From: Novosphingobium sp. AAP83
GTDB taxonomy: Bacteria > Pseudomonadota > Alphaproteobacteria > Sphingomonadales > Sphingomonadaceae
Direction: 5' to 3'
DNA length: 64,000 nucleotides
Assembly: GCF_001295795.1 (NCBI RefSeq)
Contig: NZ_LJHY01000020.1
Coordinates: 1 to 64,000 of the forward strand
Position numbers and translations under genes: made by a program. Shown here in pieces: positions 4,575 through 60,124 of the stretch (positions are counted from its first letter, which is position 1; every line of letters begins with the position of its first letter). The notes beneath the pieces are model-generated. The model was given only the letters and a program-made list of their open reading frames with translations. It searched no databases and was not told the DNA's origin.

Positions 4575-5042
4575 CTATTCGTCCCGCACGGCAATGGCGA
4601 TGATCTCTATCGCCTCAACTTTGCCAGCAAAGTCAACCAGTTCACCCACTTCGGCATCAAGCAGCGCGCGGCTTAGCGGTGCAGAGAACGAGATCAGGCC
4701 GCTGGCGGGATCAGCTTCGTCATCGCCGACGATGGTGACTTCGCGCAGCTTGCCACCTAGCCGGATGCTGACCGTCGTGCCGAACGCAACCACGCGGCCA
4801 TCGGGGCAGTCCACGAGTTGTGCGGTCGATTGCCGGGTTCCCCAATAGCGCAATTCGCGCCGCGCCTTTTTGATCGCTTCTTCATCCGTGATAGCGGGCA
4901 ATTGCGCTTCGAGTTCGGCCAGCCTGGCGCGGATCAGCGCCAGCCCGCGCGGCGTGACCAGATTAGGCCCCGGCGGGATCGGCAGCTCGAACTTCGGCTC
5001 CATATGTTCGTCATCGCCTTCGCGGCGAAACGCGACACTCAT
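4575..5042 (-). CDS. greB: GreA/GreB-family transcription elongation factor
   Basis: A 155-residue protein with an N-terminal coiled-coil region (NLVTPRGLALIRARLAELEA) and a C-terminal FKBP-like domain (residues about 80-155, TIVGDDEADPASGLISFSAPLSRALLDAEVG). Gre factors stimulate transcript cleavage by backtracked RNA polymerase. The start at 5042 follows a GGAG-like sequence; an upstream in-frame ATG at 5057 is possible. The acidic tip of the coiled coil is not the canonical E. coli sequence, so GreB versus a Gre-like factor is not fully settled. Confidence 0.8.
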   Translation of the reverse strand: MSVAFRREGDDEHMEPKFELPIPPGPNLVTPRGLALIRARLAELEAQLPAITDEEAIKKARRELRYWGTRQSTAQLVDCPDGRVVAFGTTVSIRLGGKLREVTIVGDDEADPASGLISFSAPLSRALLDAEVGELVDFAGKVEAIEIIAIAVRDE

Positions 5043-55366: not shown

Positions 55367-56392
55367 CTACCCCCGCTCCATCAACCCGTGCTTTTTCATG
55401 CAGTGGCGCAACTGGTCGTAGCTGAGGCCGAGGGCTTTTGCGGTTTGGCGCTGGTTATAGCGGTTGCGGGCGAGGTGGTGTTCGATGATCGTGCGTTCGT
55501 GGGCTTCGACGGCGGCGCGCAGATCGTTGACGCCATCGAGATCGGGCGCGGGCGCAGGGGAACTGCGTGCGGGGGCGGTGTCCACCGCCTCAGCCGCGCG
55601 GGGCGGCGAAATAGGCTTCCACGCGCTTTCGAAGGGATCAAACTGGACGCTGGCGATGGCGTTGGTCCAATCATCCCAGCGATAAACCGCGCGTTCGACC
55701 ACGTTGCGCAATTCGCGCACGTTGCCGGGCCAGAGGTATTCCTCAAGCGCCTTTTGTGTTTGCGGAGCAAAGCCGGGCCATGTGTCCCACTGCAATTCTG
55801 CGGCCATGCGCCGTCCGAAATAATCGGCAAGCACGGCCACATCGCCTTCGCGCACACGCAACGGGGGCAGGGTGATCACTTCAAAGCTGAGCCGATCCAG
55901 CAAATCGGGGCGGAAGCGGCCCTGTTCAGCCATCTTGGGCAGGTCTTCGTTGGTGGCGGCCACGATGCGCACATCAACGCGCACCGGCTTGCTGGAACCG
56001 ATGCGGGTGACTTCGCCGTATTCCACCGCGCGCAGCAGGCGTTCTTGTGCGCCCATTGATAGTGTGCCGAGTTCGTCAAGGAACAGCGTGCCCTTGTCAG
56101 CCTCTTCAAACCTGCCGGTGCGGGCGCGGGTGGCACCGGTGAAAGCGCCGGCTTCGTGCCCGAACAACTCAGCCTCGATCAGCGTTTCGGGCAAGGCCGC
56201 GCAATTCATCGTGATCAGCGGTTCTGACCAGCGTGGGGACAGGCGGTGGAGGCGTTCGGCGATCAGTTCCTTGCCGGTCCCGCGTTCGCCAATCACCAGC
56301 ACAGGGCGGCGCATCGGCGCGGCGCGGCTGGCACGTTCGACCGCGTCAAGGAACGCGCCCGATTGCCCCATGAATTGAACTTCCCGATCCAT
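55367..56392 (-). CDS. pspF: Sigma-54-dependent activator PspF
   Basis: A 341-residue AAA+ enhancer-binding protein. Walker A is GERGTGKELIAE, the sigma-54 contact loop HEAGAFTGATRA, and Walker B GTLFLDELG. The C-terminal Fis-type helix-turn-helix is RNRYNQRQTAKALGLSYDQLR. There is no receiver domain, as in PspF, so it is held in check by PspA. It is divergent from the psp operon, and a -24/-12 promoter lies in the gap. The preferred ATG is 56392; 56428 is also in frame. Confidence 0.9.
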   Translation of the reverse strand: MDREVQFMGQSGAFLDAVERASRAAPMRRPVLVIGERGTGKELIAERLHRLSPRWSEPLITMNCAALPETLIEAELFGHEAGAFTGATRARTGRFEEADKGTLFLDELGTLSMGAQERLLRAVEYGEVTRIGSSKPVRVDVRIVAATNEDLPKMAEQGRFRPDLLDRLSFEVITLPPLRVREGDVAVLADYFGRRMAAELQWDTWPGFAPQTQKALEEYLWPGNVRELRNVVERAVYRWDDWTNAIASVQFDPFESAWKPISPPRAAEAVDTAPARSSPAPAPDLDGVNDLRAAVEAHERTIIEHHLARNRYNQRQTAKALGLSYDQLRHCMKKHGLMERG

Positions 56393-56492
56393 TGCCAATG
56401 AATAGCGATAAATCCCAAGGTTTGGCAATATATCCTAGGTTAAGGGAAAGGCTTATGCGCAAATTTGCCGATAAACCGGCACTTCGGCGGTT

Positions 56493-56507
56493 TGGCACAC
56501 CCTTTGC
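56493..56507 (+). promoter_or_regulatory. Sigma-54 (-24/-12) promoter of the psp operon
   Basis: TGGCACACCCTTTGC has GG and GC separated by exactly ten bases, as required for sigma-54 promoters. It lies 57 bases before the first psp reading frame. PspF sites are expected in the 100 bases before it. Confidence 0.8.
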
Positions 56508-56563
56508 TATAACATTAACAATCCCGGCTGAGAGGCCGAAACACCCGCCGAAAGGTTCGCAAG

Positions 56564-56722
56564 ATGTACACCGCCCACTTCTTTTCCACCCAGCTTGGAC
56601 GCGCCAGCCTTGCCAGCATTGGTGCGATCGTTGTTCTGTGCGTCTTTGCGCTGACCCAGCAAGTCGATGCCGTGCCCAGCGTGATGGCATCGACAGCGGC
56701 CATTACCGGTGAACTTGCATGA
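56564..56722 (+). CDS. Small membrane protein, first gene of the psp operon
   Basis: A 52-residue frame starting MYTAHFFSTQLGRASLASIG and including IVVLCVFALTQ, a single hydrophobic segment. Ribosome site AAAGG lies at 56551. It is just after the sigma-54 promoter and its stop overlaps a longer in-frame start of pspA (ATGA), so it is probably translated with the psp genes. No family is recognised. Confidence 0.6.
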   Translation: MYTAHFFSTQLGRASLASIGAIVVLCVFALTQQVDAVPSVMASTAAITGELA

Positions 56723-56883
56723 GCGATGATCTGAGCCCGCCCCGGGCCGAGGGGCGGCGCATCACCCGCCTTGATGCGGAAATGGAGCGCCTTCGCACAA
56801 ATCCCGGCACAAATGATCGCGCCCGCCCTGCTTTTTCTGGCCCCGCTTTTTCGTCATCATCTTTCAACACCGGAGTAAACCTG

Positions 56884-57555
56884 ATGGGCATCTTTTCGCG
56901 GACCCGCGACATCATTGCCGCCAATTTCAACGATTTGTTGGAAAAGGCTGACGATCCTTCGAAGATGATCCGCATGATCATCATGGAAATGGAAGAAACG
57001 CTGGTCGAAGTTCGCGCTTCTGCGGCGCGCACCATTGCCGATCAGAAGGAAATGGGCCGCCATGTGGCCAAGCTGGACCGGCTTCAGGCCGATTGGTCGG
57101 AAAAGGCGCAATTGGCGCTTTCGAAAGACCGCGAAGATCTGGCCCGCGCGGCCTTGGTGGAAAAGAAGAAGGCTGCTGATATGGCGGTGCAGCTTCAGGC
57201 CGAAATCGGCGTGCTGGATGATGCGATGCGCGCTTATGAAATCGACATCGAAAAGCTGCAAACCCGCCTGCGCGAAGCCCGCAGCCGCCAGACCGCGATT
57301 GCCGCGCGCCTTGAAAGCGCCGAAAACCGCGTCCGTCTGCGCACGTTGCTGGCCAGCGAGCGGGTGGACGAGGCGATGGCACGGTTCGACCAGCTTGAAC
57401 GCCGCGTCGATTATGCCGAAGGCCGCGCCGATGCGCTGGGCCTTGCTGAAAGCAGCAAGCCCGGTCTGGCCGATGAAATTGCCGCTTTGGCAGGGCAGGA
57501 CAAGATCGACGAAGAGCTTGATGCGATGAAGCGCATGCTGGGCAAGGAAGGCTGA
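56884..57555 (+). CDS. pspA: Phage shock protein A (PspA)
   Basis: A 223-residue coiled-coil protein that binds stressed inner membranes and inhibits PspF. The start MGIFSRTRDIIAANFNDLLE is the family start, with the amphipathic helix; the rest is helical with many heptads (for example AALVEKKKAADMAVQLQAEI). Size equals that of classical PspA. The same frame is open upstream to 56719, giving 55 more residues (MSDDLSPPRAEGRR...), and that ATG overlaps the preceding small gene. Which start is used matters for membrane binding and is discussed in the findings. Confidence 0.93.
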   Translation: MGIFSRTRDIIAANFNDLLEKADDPSKMIRMIIMEMEETLVEVRASAARTIADQKEMGRHVAKLDRLQADWSEKAQLALSKDREDLARAALVEKKKAADMAVQLQAEIGVLDDAMRAYEIDIEKLQTRLREARSRQTAIAARLESAENRVRLRTLLASERVDEAMARFDQLERRVDYAEGRADALGLAESSKPGLADEIAALAGQDKIDEELDAMKRMLGKEG

Positions 57556-57558
57556 GTC

Positions 57559-57864
57559 ATGGAAGAGTTGATTCCGCTGACGGCAGTTCTGGCCATCTTT
57601 GTGGGCCTGCCGTGGATGATCCTGCATTACATCACCAAGTGGAAAACGGGGGCCACCCTGACCAATGGCGATGAAGCTTTGCTGGAGGAACTGTACCAGC
57701 TCGCCCGCCGCCTTGATGATCGCATGGATACGGTCGAGCGTCTGGTCGCTGCGGACAACCCGGAGTTTAAGCCGGCCCGCATCATGCATGACCGCGAAAC
57801 CGACAACCAGAAGCTGCGCGAACTGGACCGCATGTTCGCCGAACAGGGAAGGACTTCGAAGTGA
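57559..57864 (+). CDS. pspB: Phage shock protein B (PspB)
   Basis: A 101-residue membrane protein with an N-terminal TM (LTAVLAIFVGLPWMILHYIT) and a coiled coil (ALLEELYQLARRLDDRMDTVERLVA). PspB and PspC sense envelope stress and bind PspA. It is longer than E. coli PspB (74). Its motif MDTVERLVAADNPEF is the founding version of the element repeated in the later small genes. Confidence 0.88.
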   Translation: MEELIPLTAVLAIFVGLPWMILHYITKWKTGATLTNGDEALLEELYQLARRLDDRMDTVERLVAADNPEFKPARIMHDRETDNQKLRELDRMFAEQGRTSK

Positions 57865-58235
57865 ATAGCCCCCGTACCCGTTTTTATCGTGACAAGGTCA
57901 ACGGCAAGGTGATGGGCGTTTGCGCCGGAATTGCCGACTACACCGGGGTTGACGCGCTGTGGATACGGCTTGGCTTTCTTGTTCTGGCCTTTTCGATGGG
58001 GTGGCCGTTTTTCGCCTATTTCGTGCTCGGCTTTCTGACCGACAAGAAACCCGGCAATCTTTACAGCGACCGGCAAGAACAAAAGTTCTGGCAGGGCGTG
58101 CGCCAATCGCCAGCCCGCACCGCCCGCGAAGTGCGCGCCAGCTTCCGTGATATCGACCGCCGTCTGGCCGAAGTTGAAAACTATTACGTCAACAGCAACC
58201 CGCGCCTTTCGGCAGAGATCGAAAAGCTGCGCTGA
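57861..58235 (+). CDS. pspC: Phage shock protein C (PspC domain)
   Basis: A 124-residue PspC-domain protein. The signature RDKVNGKVMGVCAGIADYTG is followed by a TM pair region (LWIRLGFLVLAFSMGWPFFA). The C-terminal part has a charged helical tail. The GTG start overlaps the pspB stop. It senses envelope stress together with PspB. Confidence 0.9.
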   Translation: MNSPRTRFYRDKVNGKVMGVCAGIADYTGVDALWIRLGFLVLAFSMGWPFFAYFVLGFLTDKKPGNLYSDRQEQKFWQGVRQSPARTAREVRASFRDIDRRLAEVENYYVNSNPRLSAEIEKLR

Positions 58236-58261
58236 TATAAATTCACTAGGGGACTAAAATC

Positions 58262-58543
58262 ATGGGACCGGCAGAACTGGGCACGCTTATTCCGATCGTT
58301 GCCTTGTGCATTCCGATTGTAGCCATCTGGACCAAACACCGCCAAAAAATCGCCGAGATGCAGATCAATGCAACGGCGGAATTGAGCGCTGAAAAAGCGG
58401 CGCAATATGCCCAGCACACCCGCGATCTTGAAGAGCGTGTGCGGGTGCTTGAGCGGATCGTGACCGACAAGGGTTTCGACACCGCCGCCCAGATCGAAGC
58501 GCTGCGCCGTGATAGTGCCGCGCTTGAAGACCGGAGGGTGTGA
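58262..58543 (+). CDS. PspB-like small membrane protein, paralogue 1 (type A)
   Basis: A 93-residue protein with an N-terminal TM (LIPIVALCIPIVAIW), then a charged coiled coil (AELSAEKAAQYAQHTRDLEE) and the motif VLERIVTDKGFDTAAQIEAL. The motif and the plan correspond to PspB. The nearest relative in the operon is the gene at 59180 (shared AEKAAQYA block). Function is inferred from the context: membrane-stress partner of PspA. Stop and next start share a base. Confidence 0.8.
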   Translation: MGPAELGTLIPIVALCIPIVAIWTKHRQKIAEMQINATAELSAEKAAQYAQHTRDLEERVRVLERIVTDKGFDTAAQIEALRRDSAALEDRRV

Positions 58544-58881
58544 TGGCAATCGAGAACCTTGCACAGATCACGAACCTTGCGCCGCTTATCGGGACGGTGA
58601 CCGTGGCCGGGGTGGCGGGTTGGGTGATTACCACCTGGATGCGGGTGCGCCATGGCTATCCGCTGGACGGGGCTTGGGGGCAGGCGGTTTATCCCAAGAC
58701 GTCGAGCGCGGAACTGGAGCGGATCAAGCTGCTCAGCCAGGAAAACGCGCAGCTTCGCGCTGAACTCGGCTCGGTCAAGGACCGGCTGGCGAATGTCGAG
58801 CGGATCGTGACCGATAGCGGCTTTGGCCTGACCCAGCAGATCGAGGCGCTGCGCCTTCAGGGTGAGGGTAGGCCGCAATGA
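58543..58881 (+). CDS. PspB-like small membrane protein, paralogue 2 (type B)
   Basis: A 112-residue protein: TM (TVTVAGVAGWVITTWMRV), the loop HGYPLDGAWGQ, a coiled coil (LSQENAQLRAELGSVKDR) and the motif NVERIVTDSGFGLTQQIEAL. It pairs closely with the gene at 58878, which shares RHGYALE and the same terminal motif. The ATG is part of TGATG with the previous stop. Confidence 0.78.
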   Translation: MAIENLAQITNLAPLIGTVTVAGVAGWVITTWMRVRHGYPLDGAWGQAVYPKTSSAELERIKLLSQENAQLRAELGSVKDRLANVERIVTDSGFGLTQQIEALRLQGEGRPQ

Positions 58882-59183
58882 ACTGGGGCGGACCGGACTT
58901 TGTTCTGGGGATCATCGCGATCTCTACCGTCGGCTGGCTGATCAACAACTGGATCCGCGCGCGCCATGGCTATGCTTTGGAAGACGAATGGGGCGGCAAG
59001 ACTGACCGCGCTGACGATAAAGCAGTGGTCCAATTGCGCGAGGAAAACGCGCGTTTGCATCAGCAGCTTGAGGCGACGCACAAGCGGCTGGCCAATGTTG
59101 AGGCTATCGTTACCGACCGGGGATTTGATTTGGCAGTGCAAATCGATGCGCTGCGTGATGCGGGCGACAGGAGGGCACAATGA
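58878..59183 (+). CDS. PspB-like small membrane protein, paralogue 3 (type B)
   Basis: A 101-residue protein with TM (FVLGIIAISTVGWLINNWI), the loop RARHGYALEDEWGG, coiled coil (LREENARLHQQLEATHKR) and NVEAIVTDRGFDLAVQIDAL. Start overlaps the previous stop by 4 bases. It is the sister of paralogue 2, which supports tandem duplication. Confidence 0.78.
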   Translation: MNWGGPDFVLGIIAISTVGWLINNWIRARHGYALEDEWGGKTDRADDKAVVQLREENARLHQQLEATHKRLANVEAIVTDRGFDLAVQIDALRDAGDRRAQ

Positions 59184-59452
59184 ACGAGAGTATAGTCCTA
59201 ACGCTGGTGTTTATGGTGATCGTGCTGCCCATCGTGCTGGGCATTGGATCGGACATCTACAAGCGCCGCCTTGCTTTCCGCGAACGCGAGCTTGAGCTGT
59301 TTTCCAAACAGACCGCCGAGAAAGCCGCGCAATATGCCGCGCAGGCTGAACGGCTTGAGCAACGGGTGCGCGTGCTCGAACGCATCGCCACCGAAAACAA
59401 CACCGACCTTGCGCTCCAGATCGAGAATCTGCGCGATATGAAGGTCAACTGA
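59180..59452 (+). CDS. PspB-like small membrane protein, paralogue 4 (type A)
   Basis: A 90-residue protein with TM (IVLTLVFMVIVLPIVLGIG), a charged helix (FRERELELFSKQTAEKAAQY) and VLERIATENNTDLALQIENL. It shares the AEKAAQYA-RLE-RVRVLERI block with the gene at 58262. Start overlaps the previous stop by 4 bases. Confidence 0.78.
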   Translation: MNESIVLTLVFMVIVLPIVLGIGSDIYKRRLAFRERELELFSKQTAEKAAQYAAQAERLEQRVRVLERIATENNTDLALQIENLRDMKVN

Positions 59453-59464
59453 GGGACCGCTGCA

Positions 59465-59710
59465 ATGTCATTCTGGAGTGCCATGGTTGCCATCGTTGCC
59501 ATCATTGCCTGGGCCAACATCCGCATGAACAAGGACAAGCATCGCGGGAGTGGCATAAACGTGGTCGATCATGACCCGGCCCATACCGCCAGCCTTGAAC
59601 GCGAAGTTGCCGAGATGCGCAAACGGCTTGAAGTGCTGGAGCGCATTGCCACCGAGGATGGCGAAACCCGCCGCCTCTCGCGCGAGATTGAATCGCTGCG
59701 CGAGAAATAA
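59465..59710 (+). CDS. PspB-like small membrane protein, paralogue 5
   Basis: An 81-residue protein with a short TM (AMVAIVAIIAWANI), a coiled coil (ASLEREVAEMRKRLEVLERI) and the end ATEDGETRRLSREIESL. It keeps the LERIATE form of the motif. It is the most divergent full-length copy. A 28-base gap follows. Confidence 0.72.
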   Translation: MSFWSAMVAIVAIIAWANIRMNKDKHRGSGINVVDHDPAHTASLEREVAEMRKRLEVLERIATEDGETRRLSREIESLREK

Positions 59711-59738
59711 TCCTCAACCCCTTGAGGGAGTTGCCGAT

Positions 59739-59951
59739 ATGACTTCCGATATTGTCTTGGCTTTATCCGCACTCACCGGCCTTGCCATGATCGCTATGGC
59801 GGCGTTGCGCGGGTGGGATGGCTGGCTGGCGTTGAAACGCCTTGAACTCGAGCGCTATGAAACCGGCGATGCCGCCAGCCTGATCGACCTTGCCGATATG
59901 CGCGAACGCTTGCGCAAACTTGAAGCCATCGCCGCAGGAGTGGATTTATGA
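59739..59951 (+). CDS. PspB-like small membrane protein, paralogue 6 (short)
   Basis: A 70-residue protein with TM (LALSALTGLAMIAMAALRGW), a short coiled coil (LKRLELERYETGDAASLIDL) and a truncated motif KLEAIAAGVDL. The frame is chosen by the ATG after TTGCCGAT; the ribosome site GAGGGAG lies at 59724-59730. Its stop overlaps the next start by 4 bases. Confidence 0.68.
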   Translation: MTSDIVLALSALTGLAMIAMAALRGWDGWLALKRLELERYETGDAASLIDLADMRERLRKLEAIAAGVDL

Positions 59952-60124
59952 GCAAGCACAGAGATGGCGCCGCCAAAGCCGGGATCGGGCTTGGCAGCGC
60001 GATTGCGGTGGCGATTTCTTGGAGCCTGCACAAATCCATCGTGTGGGCTGCGATTCACGGCATTTTGTCGTGGCTATACGTGCTGTACTTTGCGCTGATG
60101 CGGCCGGGCGGACTTTCGGGCTGA
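59948..60124 (+). CDS. Small membrane protein, last gene of the psp array
   Basis: A 58-residue frame starting MSKHRDGAAKAGIGLGSAIA, with a possible two-helix pattern (AIAVAISWSL and AAIHGILSWLYVLYFAL). It overlaps paralogue 6 by ATGA and lacks the coiled-coil motif. It resembles small hydrophobic proteins found at the end of psp operons, but I recognise no family. Confidence 0.6.
   Translation: MSKHRDGAAKAGIGLGSAIAVAISWSLHKSIVWAAIHGILSWLYVLYFALMRPGGLSG

Follow-up and report, generated by a model that had tools for sequence, protein, structure and literature searches.

Small membrane proteins related to PspB and to the PspC tail form an array behind pspABC in the family Sphingomonadaceae

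In Novosphingobium sp. AAP83, the genes pspA, pspB and pspC of the membrane-stress operon psp are followed by seven tiny genes, here called m1 to m7, which we analysed within a stretch of 64,000 nucleotides of contig NZ_LJHY01000020.1 (the window). By profile comparison, m1 to m5 make up one family, m6 is its distant relative and m7 is unrelated. We propose that m1 to m5, and more distantly m6, are probably accessory PspB/PspC-type membrane anchors, which would join or replace PspB and PspC in handling PspA. The array is widespread in the family Sphingomonadaceae, not a peculiarity of the genome that holds the window.

All seven genes lie on the plus strand at the predicted positions. The protein m1 (58262-58543, 93 amino acids) consists of a one-helix anchor and the tail module LEERVRVLERIVTDKGFDTAAQIEALR, m2 (58543-58881, 112 amino acids) carries a RHGYPL..AWG linker, m3 (58878-59183, 101 amino acids) belongs to the group closest to m2, and m4 (59180-59452, 90 amino acids) is closest to m1, with a profile-profile probability of 99.9%. 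The next gene, m5 (59465-59710, 81 amino acids), encodes the array's best match to the PspB profile, m6 (59739-59951, 70 amino acids) has a one-helix anchor with the shortened tail LEAIAAGVDL, and m7 (59948-60124, 58 amino acids) is a small hydrophobic protein. The overlapping or near-overlapping ends that had been predicted are present, with overlaps of 1-4 nucleotides at the m1/m2, m2/m3, m3/m4 and m6/m7 junctions and gaps of 26, 12 and 28 nucleotides at pspC/m1, m4/m5 and m5/m6, respectively. Comparison with seven near relatives, leaving out matches below 55% identity, gave median ratios of non-synonymous to synonymous substitution rates (dN/dS) of 0.064, 0.071, 0.129, 0.16, 0.199, 0.095 and 0.182 for m1 to m7, based on 7, 4, 6, 7, 7, 7 and 5 relatives. 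As these medians fall between 0.06 and 0.20, all seven genes are real and conserved, and all are under purifying selection. The same values rule out pseudogenes, and an assembly artefact is ruled out by the many genomes that carry the same array.

Profile-profile alignment with hhalign revealed that the groups m1, m2/m3, m4 and m5 match each other at 98.9-99.9% probability. These profiles comprise 26, 25, 21 and 27 distinct proteins, 99 in total; the labels m1, m2, m4 and m5 were assigned by the best iterated profile, so that single proteins may be misgrouped. The m6 query matched m4 at 93%, with 76% in the reverse direction and lower values for the other groups. For m7, the profile stayed below 1% against PspB, the PspC tail and m1 to m6. 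We built a tree from 100 proteins, for which 19 of the 80 relatives' loci and six further, hand-picked loci were used. With few columns and many weak forks, it supports m2+m3 at 99/93, m2 inside it as a family-wide clade at 100/100, m5 at 97/92 and m1+m4 at 93/79. Thus, of the two sister pairs that the original prediction named, the genes starting at 58543 and 58878 (m2 and m3) are well supported as a pair, whereas those starting at 58262 and 59180 (m1 and m4) are joined only weakly. The groups m1, m2, m2+m3 and m5 each hold members from Novosphingobium and from Erythrobacteraceae; the paralogues therefore look old, and recent local duplication is ruled out. A RHGY.L...WG linker directly behind the membrane helix is common to m2 and m3 (58543-59183) and missing from m1, m4 and m5.

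The pooled m1-m5 profile matched out-of-family PspB at 95.8% (28 columns) and in-family PspB at 64%, and it matched PspC tails at 92.7% within the family and 78.5% outside it (38 columns each), compared to a maximum of 9.53% over eight controls, made of reversed PspB, reversed PspC tails and four PspA coiled-coil windows. Taken singly, the groups reached 89-94% against out-of-family PspB and 48-92% against in-family PspC tails. When compared directly, PspB and the PspC tail gave 21.8% and 0.9% only, which makes the m family the link between them. The consensus sequences tell the same story in two halves: the m tails read RVRVLERI.TD...LA.QIEALR, out-of-family PspB has the first half followed by PDWR, and the in-family PspC tail has both halves, RRLAEVE.FYVSSNPRLSAEIE.LR, as does m2, DRLANVERIVTD.GY.LA.QIEALR. 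Since PspB has the first half and the PspC tail both, the m tails resemble the two of them. The consensus of the m1, m2, m4 and m5 groups reads ..ERI.TD.....QIEALR or EIEALR, and the PspB signature LERIL....PDWR is absent. Judged from these alignments, what the proteins have in common is a coiled-coil module at the C-terminus, PspC-tail-like as well as PspB-like, set on a PspB-like single membrane helix. Compared to PspC, in which the same two-part module forms the end of TIGR02978, the m proteins lack the PspC core domain and carry the module on a single-helix anchor of their own; with the core-domain model PF04024 at an expectation value (E) of at most 1, PspC itself was matched and no m protein was. 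A terminal motif closing in D/E-x-G, originally described for six proteins, is found in m1, m2, m3 and m5; m4 has LERIATENN, without the G, and m6 departs from the motif.

Searches against curated models point in the same direction. When the 18,950 models of NCBIfam were searched, the top rank went to a model of PspB or PspC for all five of m1 to m5 and for eight of ten relatives from other loci. The protein m5 matched TIGR02976 with 23.6 bits (E 4.5e-5; cut-off 51.7), m4 matched a PspB model at 8.7e-5 and m1 matched TIGR02976 at 0.002, whereas the best model of m2 and m3 was TIGR02978, over the last ~45 positions of PspC, at 0.0013. In the own genome, the PspB profile listed m5, m1 and m4 directly after PspB (E 4.4e-4, 0.0028 and 0.113), m4 being barely ahead of an unrelated open reading frame (ORF) at 0.135.

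This ranking, together with the PspB layout of m1 to m6 and the 'PspB duplicates' that an article by Ravi et al. (2024) names in psp operons, is what one would expect of true functional PspB duplicates that keep the same role and have drifted in sequence only. We consider such duplicates unlikely. The m proteins do share with PspB (PF06667/TIGR02976) an N-terminal single membrane helix, a positive flank on its C side, a coiled coil, L-E-x-I near the end and a place in the psp operon, but they score far below the cut-offs, lack a PDWR-type end and possess a second conserved half, L..QIEALR, with which the tail continues in PspC-like fashion. Moreover, their separately conserved subfamilies, kept under selection, indicate different jobs. 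The significant PF06667 matches that the original prediction would have counted as support did not appear, the best being m5 with 15.2 bits against a cut-off of 25.6. Its term 'PspB-like' holds for the pooled family, which is related to PspB, but not in the sense of plain PspB copies, given that the PspC tail matches about as well.

Several sequence results weigh against relating the array to PspB and PspC. None of m1 to m7 reaches a PspB cut-off in Pfam or NCBIfam. In Pfam, PspB came first for m4 and m5 only and second for m1 (E 0.7), and it was unlisted for m2, m3, m6 and m7. The similarity is a short segment of 24-66 columns that lies under every curated cut-off. Single groups scored lower against in-family PspB (18-33%) and out-of-family PspC tails (23-71%), and the single-group controls rose to 15.3%, with one value of 29.6% for m2 against one reversed set. 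A profile of 16 m1-m5-type proteins only (A2) picked up no PspB or PspC in the own genome at E<=10, and a PspC-tail profile (A3) listed PspC and two unrelated weak matches there, not the array. Across the 132 collected loci, 12 PspB and 5 PspC matches of A2 lay at E<=0.001 and 29 of each at E<=0.03; the reversed ORFs gave four matches, the best at 0.031, all of them reversed ORFs of the array region.

These weak single-sequence scores, which in Pfam often stand behind other coiled-coil families, would suit a set of unrelated small coiled-coil proteins whose likeness to PspB comes from heptad repeats and composition only, and so would the A2 results just given and an AlphaFold2 model of m1 that is a featureless single helix (residues 3-92) of modest confidence, with a mean predicted local distance difference test (pLDDT) score of 68 and a predicted template modelling (pTM) score of 0.30. 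We regard this explanation as very improbable and disfavour it, given the low pooled-family controls, the absence of any match among 129 PspA coiled-coil ORFs, the first rank of PspB and PspC models in NCBIfam and the strict linkage to psp within the family. Profiles iterated from m1, m4 and m5 seeds were dropped for homology claims in favour of A2 and of hhalign with controls, as they had absorbed PspB and PspC and their scores for these proteins were therefore flattering. In the own genome, A2 also matched a coiled-coil ORF on contig C16 (E 0.004), which by eye has no membrane helix, ahead of m6 (0.03). Among the best 60 of 101 matches of A2 to solved structures, the haemagglutinin HA2 coiled coil predominated, at E 0.0065 and worse, which we take as chance; PspB gave one match (E 0.93) and PspC none.

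Linkage to psp was examined with A2 over 22,077 ORFs from 132 loci, namely the window and sets of 51 and 80 loci that have at least six genomes in common. At E<=10, A2 matched 440 array ORFs within 3.5 kilobases (kb) downstream of pspC on the same strand and nine more in two contigs that start inside the array, 449 array ORFs in total, all at E<=3.7e-6. In addition, it matched 72 m6-type ORFs (recognised by their tail pattern), 72 of 117 labelled pspB plus one unlabelled PspB, and 61 of 133 pspC. None of the 129 pspA, none of the 125 pspF and no other ORF among the 22,077 was matched. In Novosphingobium, all 33 psp loci carry the array, with one m1-m5-type copy in 2, three in 12, four in 13 and five in 6 loci, where contig ends may hide some m genes; this presence is beyond chance. 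A PspC locus was found in 33 of 37 same-genus genomes, and the four genomes without PspC, two of them less than 90% complete, have no array at E<=0.001.

A survey of 199 genomes from 96 genera of Sphingomonadaceae as GTDB defines this family detected the array at E<=1e-6 in 182 genomes and 88 genera. The tie between the small genes and psp in related genomes, whose absence would have spoken against the original prediction, is thus borne out. PspB was present in 184 genomes; 179 have both, 5 have PspB only, 3 the array only and 12 neither, and these 12 also lack PspC. Two of the PspB-only genomes are interrupted, as a contig ends in pspC (G157) or an array-like gene runs into the contig end (G250). 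Among the array-only genomes, one is 66% complete and has no PspA or PspC either (G142), another has a contig that starts at pspC (G125), and the third, G100, is a genuine case. Among the matches listed, 454 of 596 candidate stretches encode a relative. The best 80 relatives' loci were kept, all of them found by m1, whose best matches come from Novosphingobium, and the 78 that have pspC on the contig contain two to seven m genes. The unrelated m7 is absent from some relatives.

Natural gene losses provide a further view of the array. Eleven Novosphingobium loci have pspA followed directly by pspC, no pspB, and three or four m genes. N. naphthalenivorans is a PspB-less species of the genus. In none of the 12 array-bearing genomes without pspB at the psp locus (these eleven and G100) was a PspB over the cut-off found anywhere. 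In a PspA tree, the pspB-less Novosphingobium loci form one group, supported at 87/71, which is not strong; pspB was therefore probably lost once in the genus. PspC from these loci scores 76-95 bits, compared to 119-131 bits in the other same-genus loci, and their PspC is thus altered as well. In the PspA tree, G100 is separate from them and sits on a long branch; it has no PspB, and its PspC ORF (4622-4888 of locus L193) is 88 amino acids long and stops before the tail, with two m genes after it. No pspF-type gene was found there in the 10 kb around pspA. These losses are correlations, and they are what would be expected if the m proteins can stand in for PspB and for the PspC tail.

Other points of the distribution count against reading the m proteins as accessory PspB/PspC-type anchors. 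One psp locus of the family has pspFABC and then sufE directly, with no m1-m5 (G109), and two have PspABC and only m6 before sufE, again with no m1-m5 (G135 and G177); m6 is thus kept in two of the three psp loci without m1-m5. From other families of the order, 83 genomes at most were sampled, and 56 of these contained one or two relatives at E<=1e-6; 2 of 19 psp loci there carry one m gene. Of 16 such relatives' loci (10 kb each; one from outside the order), 14 lie outside psp, and two (L189 and L195) have psp genes inside the 10 kb. In G049 and G466, one copy lies in the psp locus and one outside. A class-wide sample at E<=1e-8 yielded 4 of 190 genomes, three of them from the own family. The relatives outside psp operons (L179-L188, L190-L192 and L194) are ~73-95 amino acids long, and in G439 (L192) two of them neighbour genes of dut-like and coaBC-like appearance. 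The array may have arisen from such non-psp relatives.

These exceptions, together with the downstream position of the genes and their variable number (one to five of m1-m5 type in the genus), make it conceivable that the small proteins serve the regulon as stress effectors, comparable to enterobacterial PspD and PspG, and act on the membrane or on other envelope proteins outside PspA/PspF signalling. We hold this to be the less probable account, and yet the most serious competitor. The conserved part of the m proteins is a PspB/PspC-type tail, and they are retained in genomes that have lost PspB and, in one case, the PspC tail, which indicates a signalling or recruiting role instead.

As the original prediction had it, the m1-m6-type proteins follow the PspB layout: lysine and arginine are richer on the C side of the N-terminal membrane helix in 119 of 119 tested proteins, although the starts were chosen by a script via the hydrophobic stretch and the N-terminal position of the helix is thus partly built in. 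The test took 127 of 151 proteins, the remainder being without a usable start. Helix hydropathy exceeded 1.6 in 113 of the 119, and m7 has the opposite lysine/arginine bias in 7 of 7. As more lysine and arginine lie behind the helix than before it, m1 to m6 are predicted to have the C-terminus inside, as PspB does.

In enterobacteria, the PspC tail provides a docking site for PspA; the PspB cytoplasmic domain masks PspA-docking sites. We propose that m1 to m5, and more distantly m6, belong as accessory subunits to the Psp sensor complex of the inner membrane. Each would start with a single membrane helix, with the N-terminus outside and the C-terminus inside, and continue in the cytoplasm as a long helix, ending in a coiled-coil module as at the PspB end and, more fully, in the PspC tail. 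They would be made together with PspA, PspB and PspC upon firing of PspF and sigma-54, and would most likely form complexes with PspB, with PspC and among themselves via the membrane helix and the coiled coil. They might then offer extra or alternative docking sites for PspA, or act as extra partners that mask such sites. As the m proteins combine an anchor of PspB type with a tail of PspC type and are encoded in the psp operon, an extra PspA anchor or a tail-masking partner is the best reading of them.

PspA, PspB and PspC lie where predicted and score over their curated cut-offs: pspA (56719-57555, plus strand; usual-type start at 56884) gives 275 bits with TIGR02977 from 56884 (cut-off 243), the canonical pspB (57559-57864, plus strand) gives 77.9 bits with PF06667 and an above-cut-off 92.2 bits with TIGR02976, and pspC (57861-58235, plus strand), with the C-terminal tail module RLAEVENYYVNSNPRLSAEIEKLR, gives 129.1 bits with TIGR02978 (cut-off 104). 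The divergent pspF-type sigma-54 activator gene (55367-56428, minus strand) was recognised as an ORF with GAFTGA in its translation, which we take to be the activator motif; it lies divergently beside pspA in most relatives. The sigma-54 (-24/-12) promoter TTGGCACACCCTTTGCT (56492-56508, plus strand) is an exact match, and the sole zero-mismatch match in the window, to what we assume to be the sigma-54 pattern. On the coding strand, the operon stretch has two of its nine terminator-like sites (shuffled mean 5.0, standard deviation 2.5), and it has two sigma-70-like sites (shuffled mean 1.5). One transcript through the array is plausible from the exact promoter and the overlapping genes. A weak sigma-70-like site directly before m1 (58232-58260) speaks against it, and hence separate transcription of the array is possible. 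The array is bounded by m7, which ends 42 bases ahead of a candidate sufE-type gene, presumably so by the look of its sequence.

Between promoter and pspA lies an ORF of 52 amino acids (56564-56722, plus strand), which near relatives conserve from end to end, with a dN/dS of 0.09-0.23 and a median of 0.17 over six comparisons. It encodes a hydrophobic stretch, and its stop overlaps the start of a conserved in-frame N-terminal extension of PspA (56719-56883), which carries the motif RLDxExERLR before the usual MGIFSRTR start. The extension is in frame with pspA in all 34 loci that match it at E<=0.1, and with a dN/dS of 0.19-0.58 it is more loosely conserved than PspA; two forms of PspA are possible. 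The own genome also has a second PspC-type domain outside the window (G000:C13:140352-140513, E 5e-14).

Extra PspB-type units in psp operons are already known. The article of Ravi et al. 2024 (PMC11237479) describes 'PspB duplicates' in psp operons and PspC fused to a divergent C-terminal PspB, which corresponds to the PspB-like end on PspC seen here. This mention is one sentence with the accession AOL22920.1, and the part consulted does not contain the family-wide array, its subfamilies or the replacement of PspB. Beyond these duplicates, our searches of open-licence PubMed Central literature found no description of the array, nor of such arrays in the accessible portion of PMC9239133 (2022). 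Zymomonas mobilis is presumably a member of the same family as the organism of the window. In it, pspA, pspB and pspC rise under ethanol, according to PMC3495753, whose consulted part does not mention array genes. PMC3068692 reports for E. coli that a putative leucine zipper of PspC is required for the interaction with PspA and that a soluble piece of the PspC tail, jointly with PspB, binds PspA; it places the PspC tail putatively in the periplasm and considers more than one topology.

One tentative view is that Sphingomonadaceae took the PspA-handling tail apart and multiplied it, so that separate anchored tail proteins would supplement, and in places replace, PspB and the PspC tail, while differing helices and linkers, such as RHGY.L...WG of m2 and m3, might adapt one PspA to varying states of the membrane. 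It is a long-standing question how membrane damage is sensed by PspB and PspC and how they hand over PspA; to our knowledge, work on it has mainly used E. coli and Yersinia. Since this family offers many naturally occurring versions of the module, as well as genomes that have lost PspB or the PspC tail, genetics and binding assays could be used in it to separate sensing from PspA recruitment, and the same family may show why cells want several such modules.

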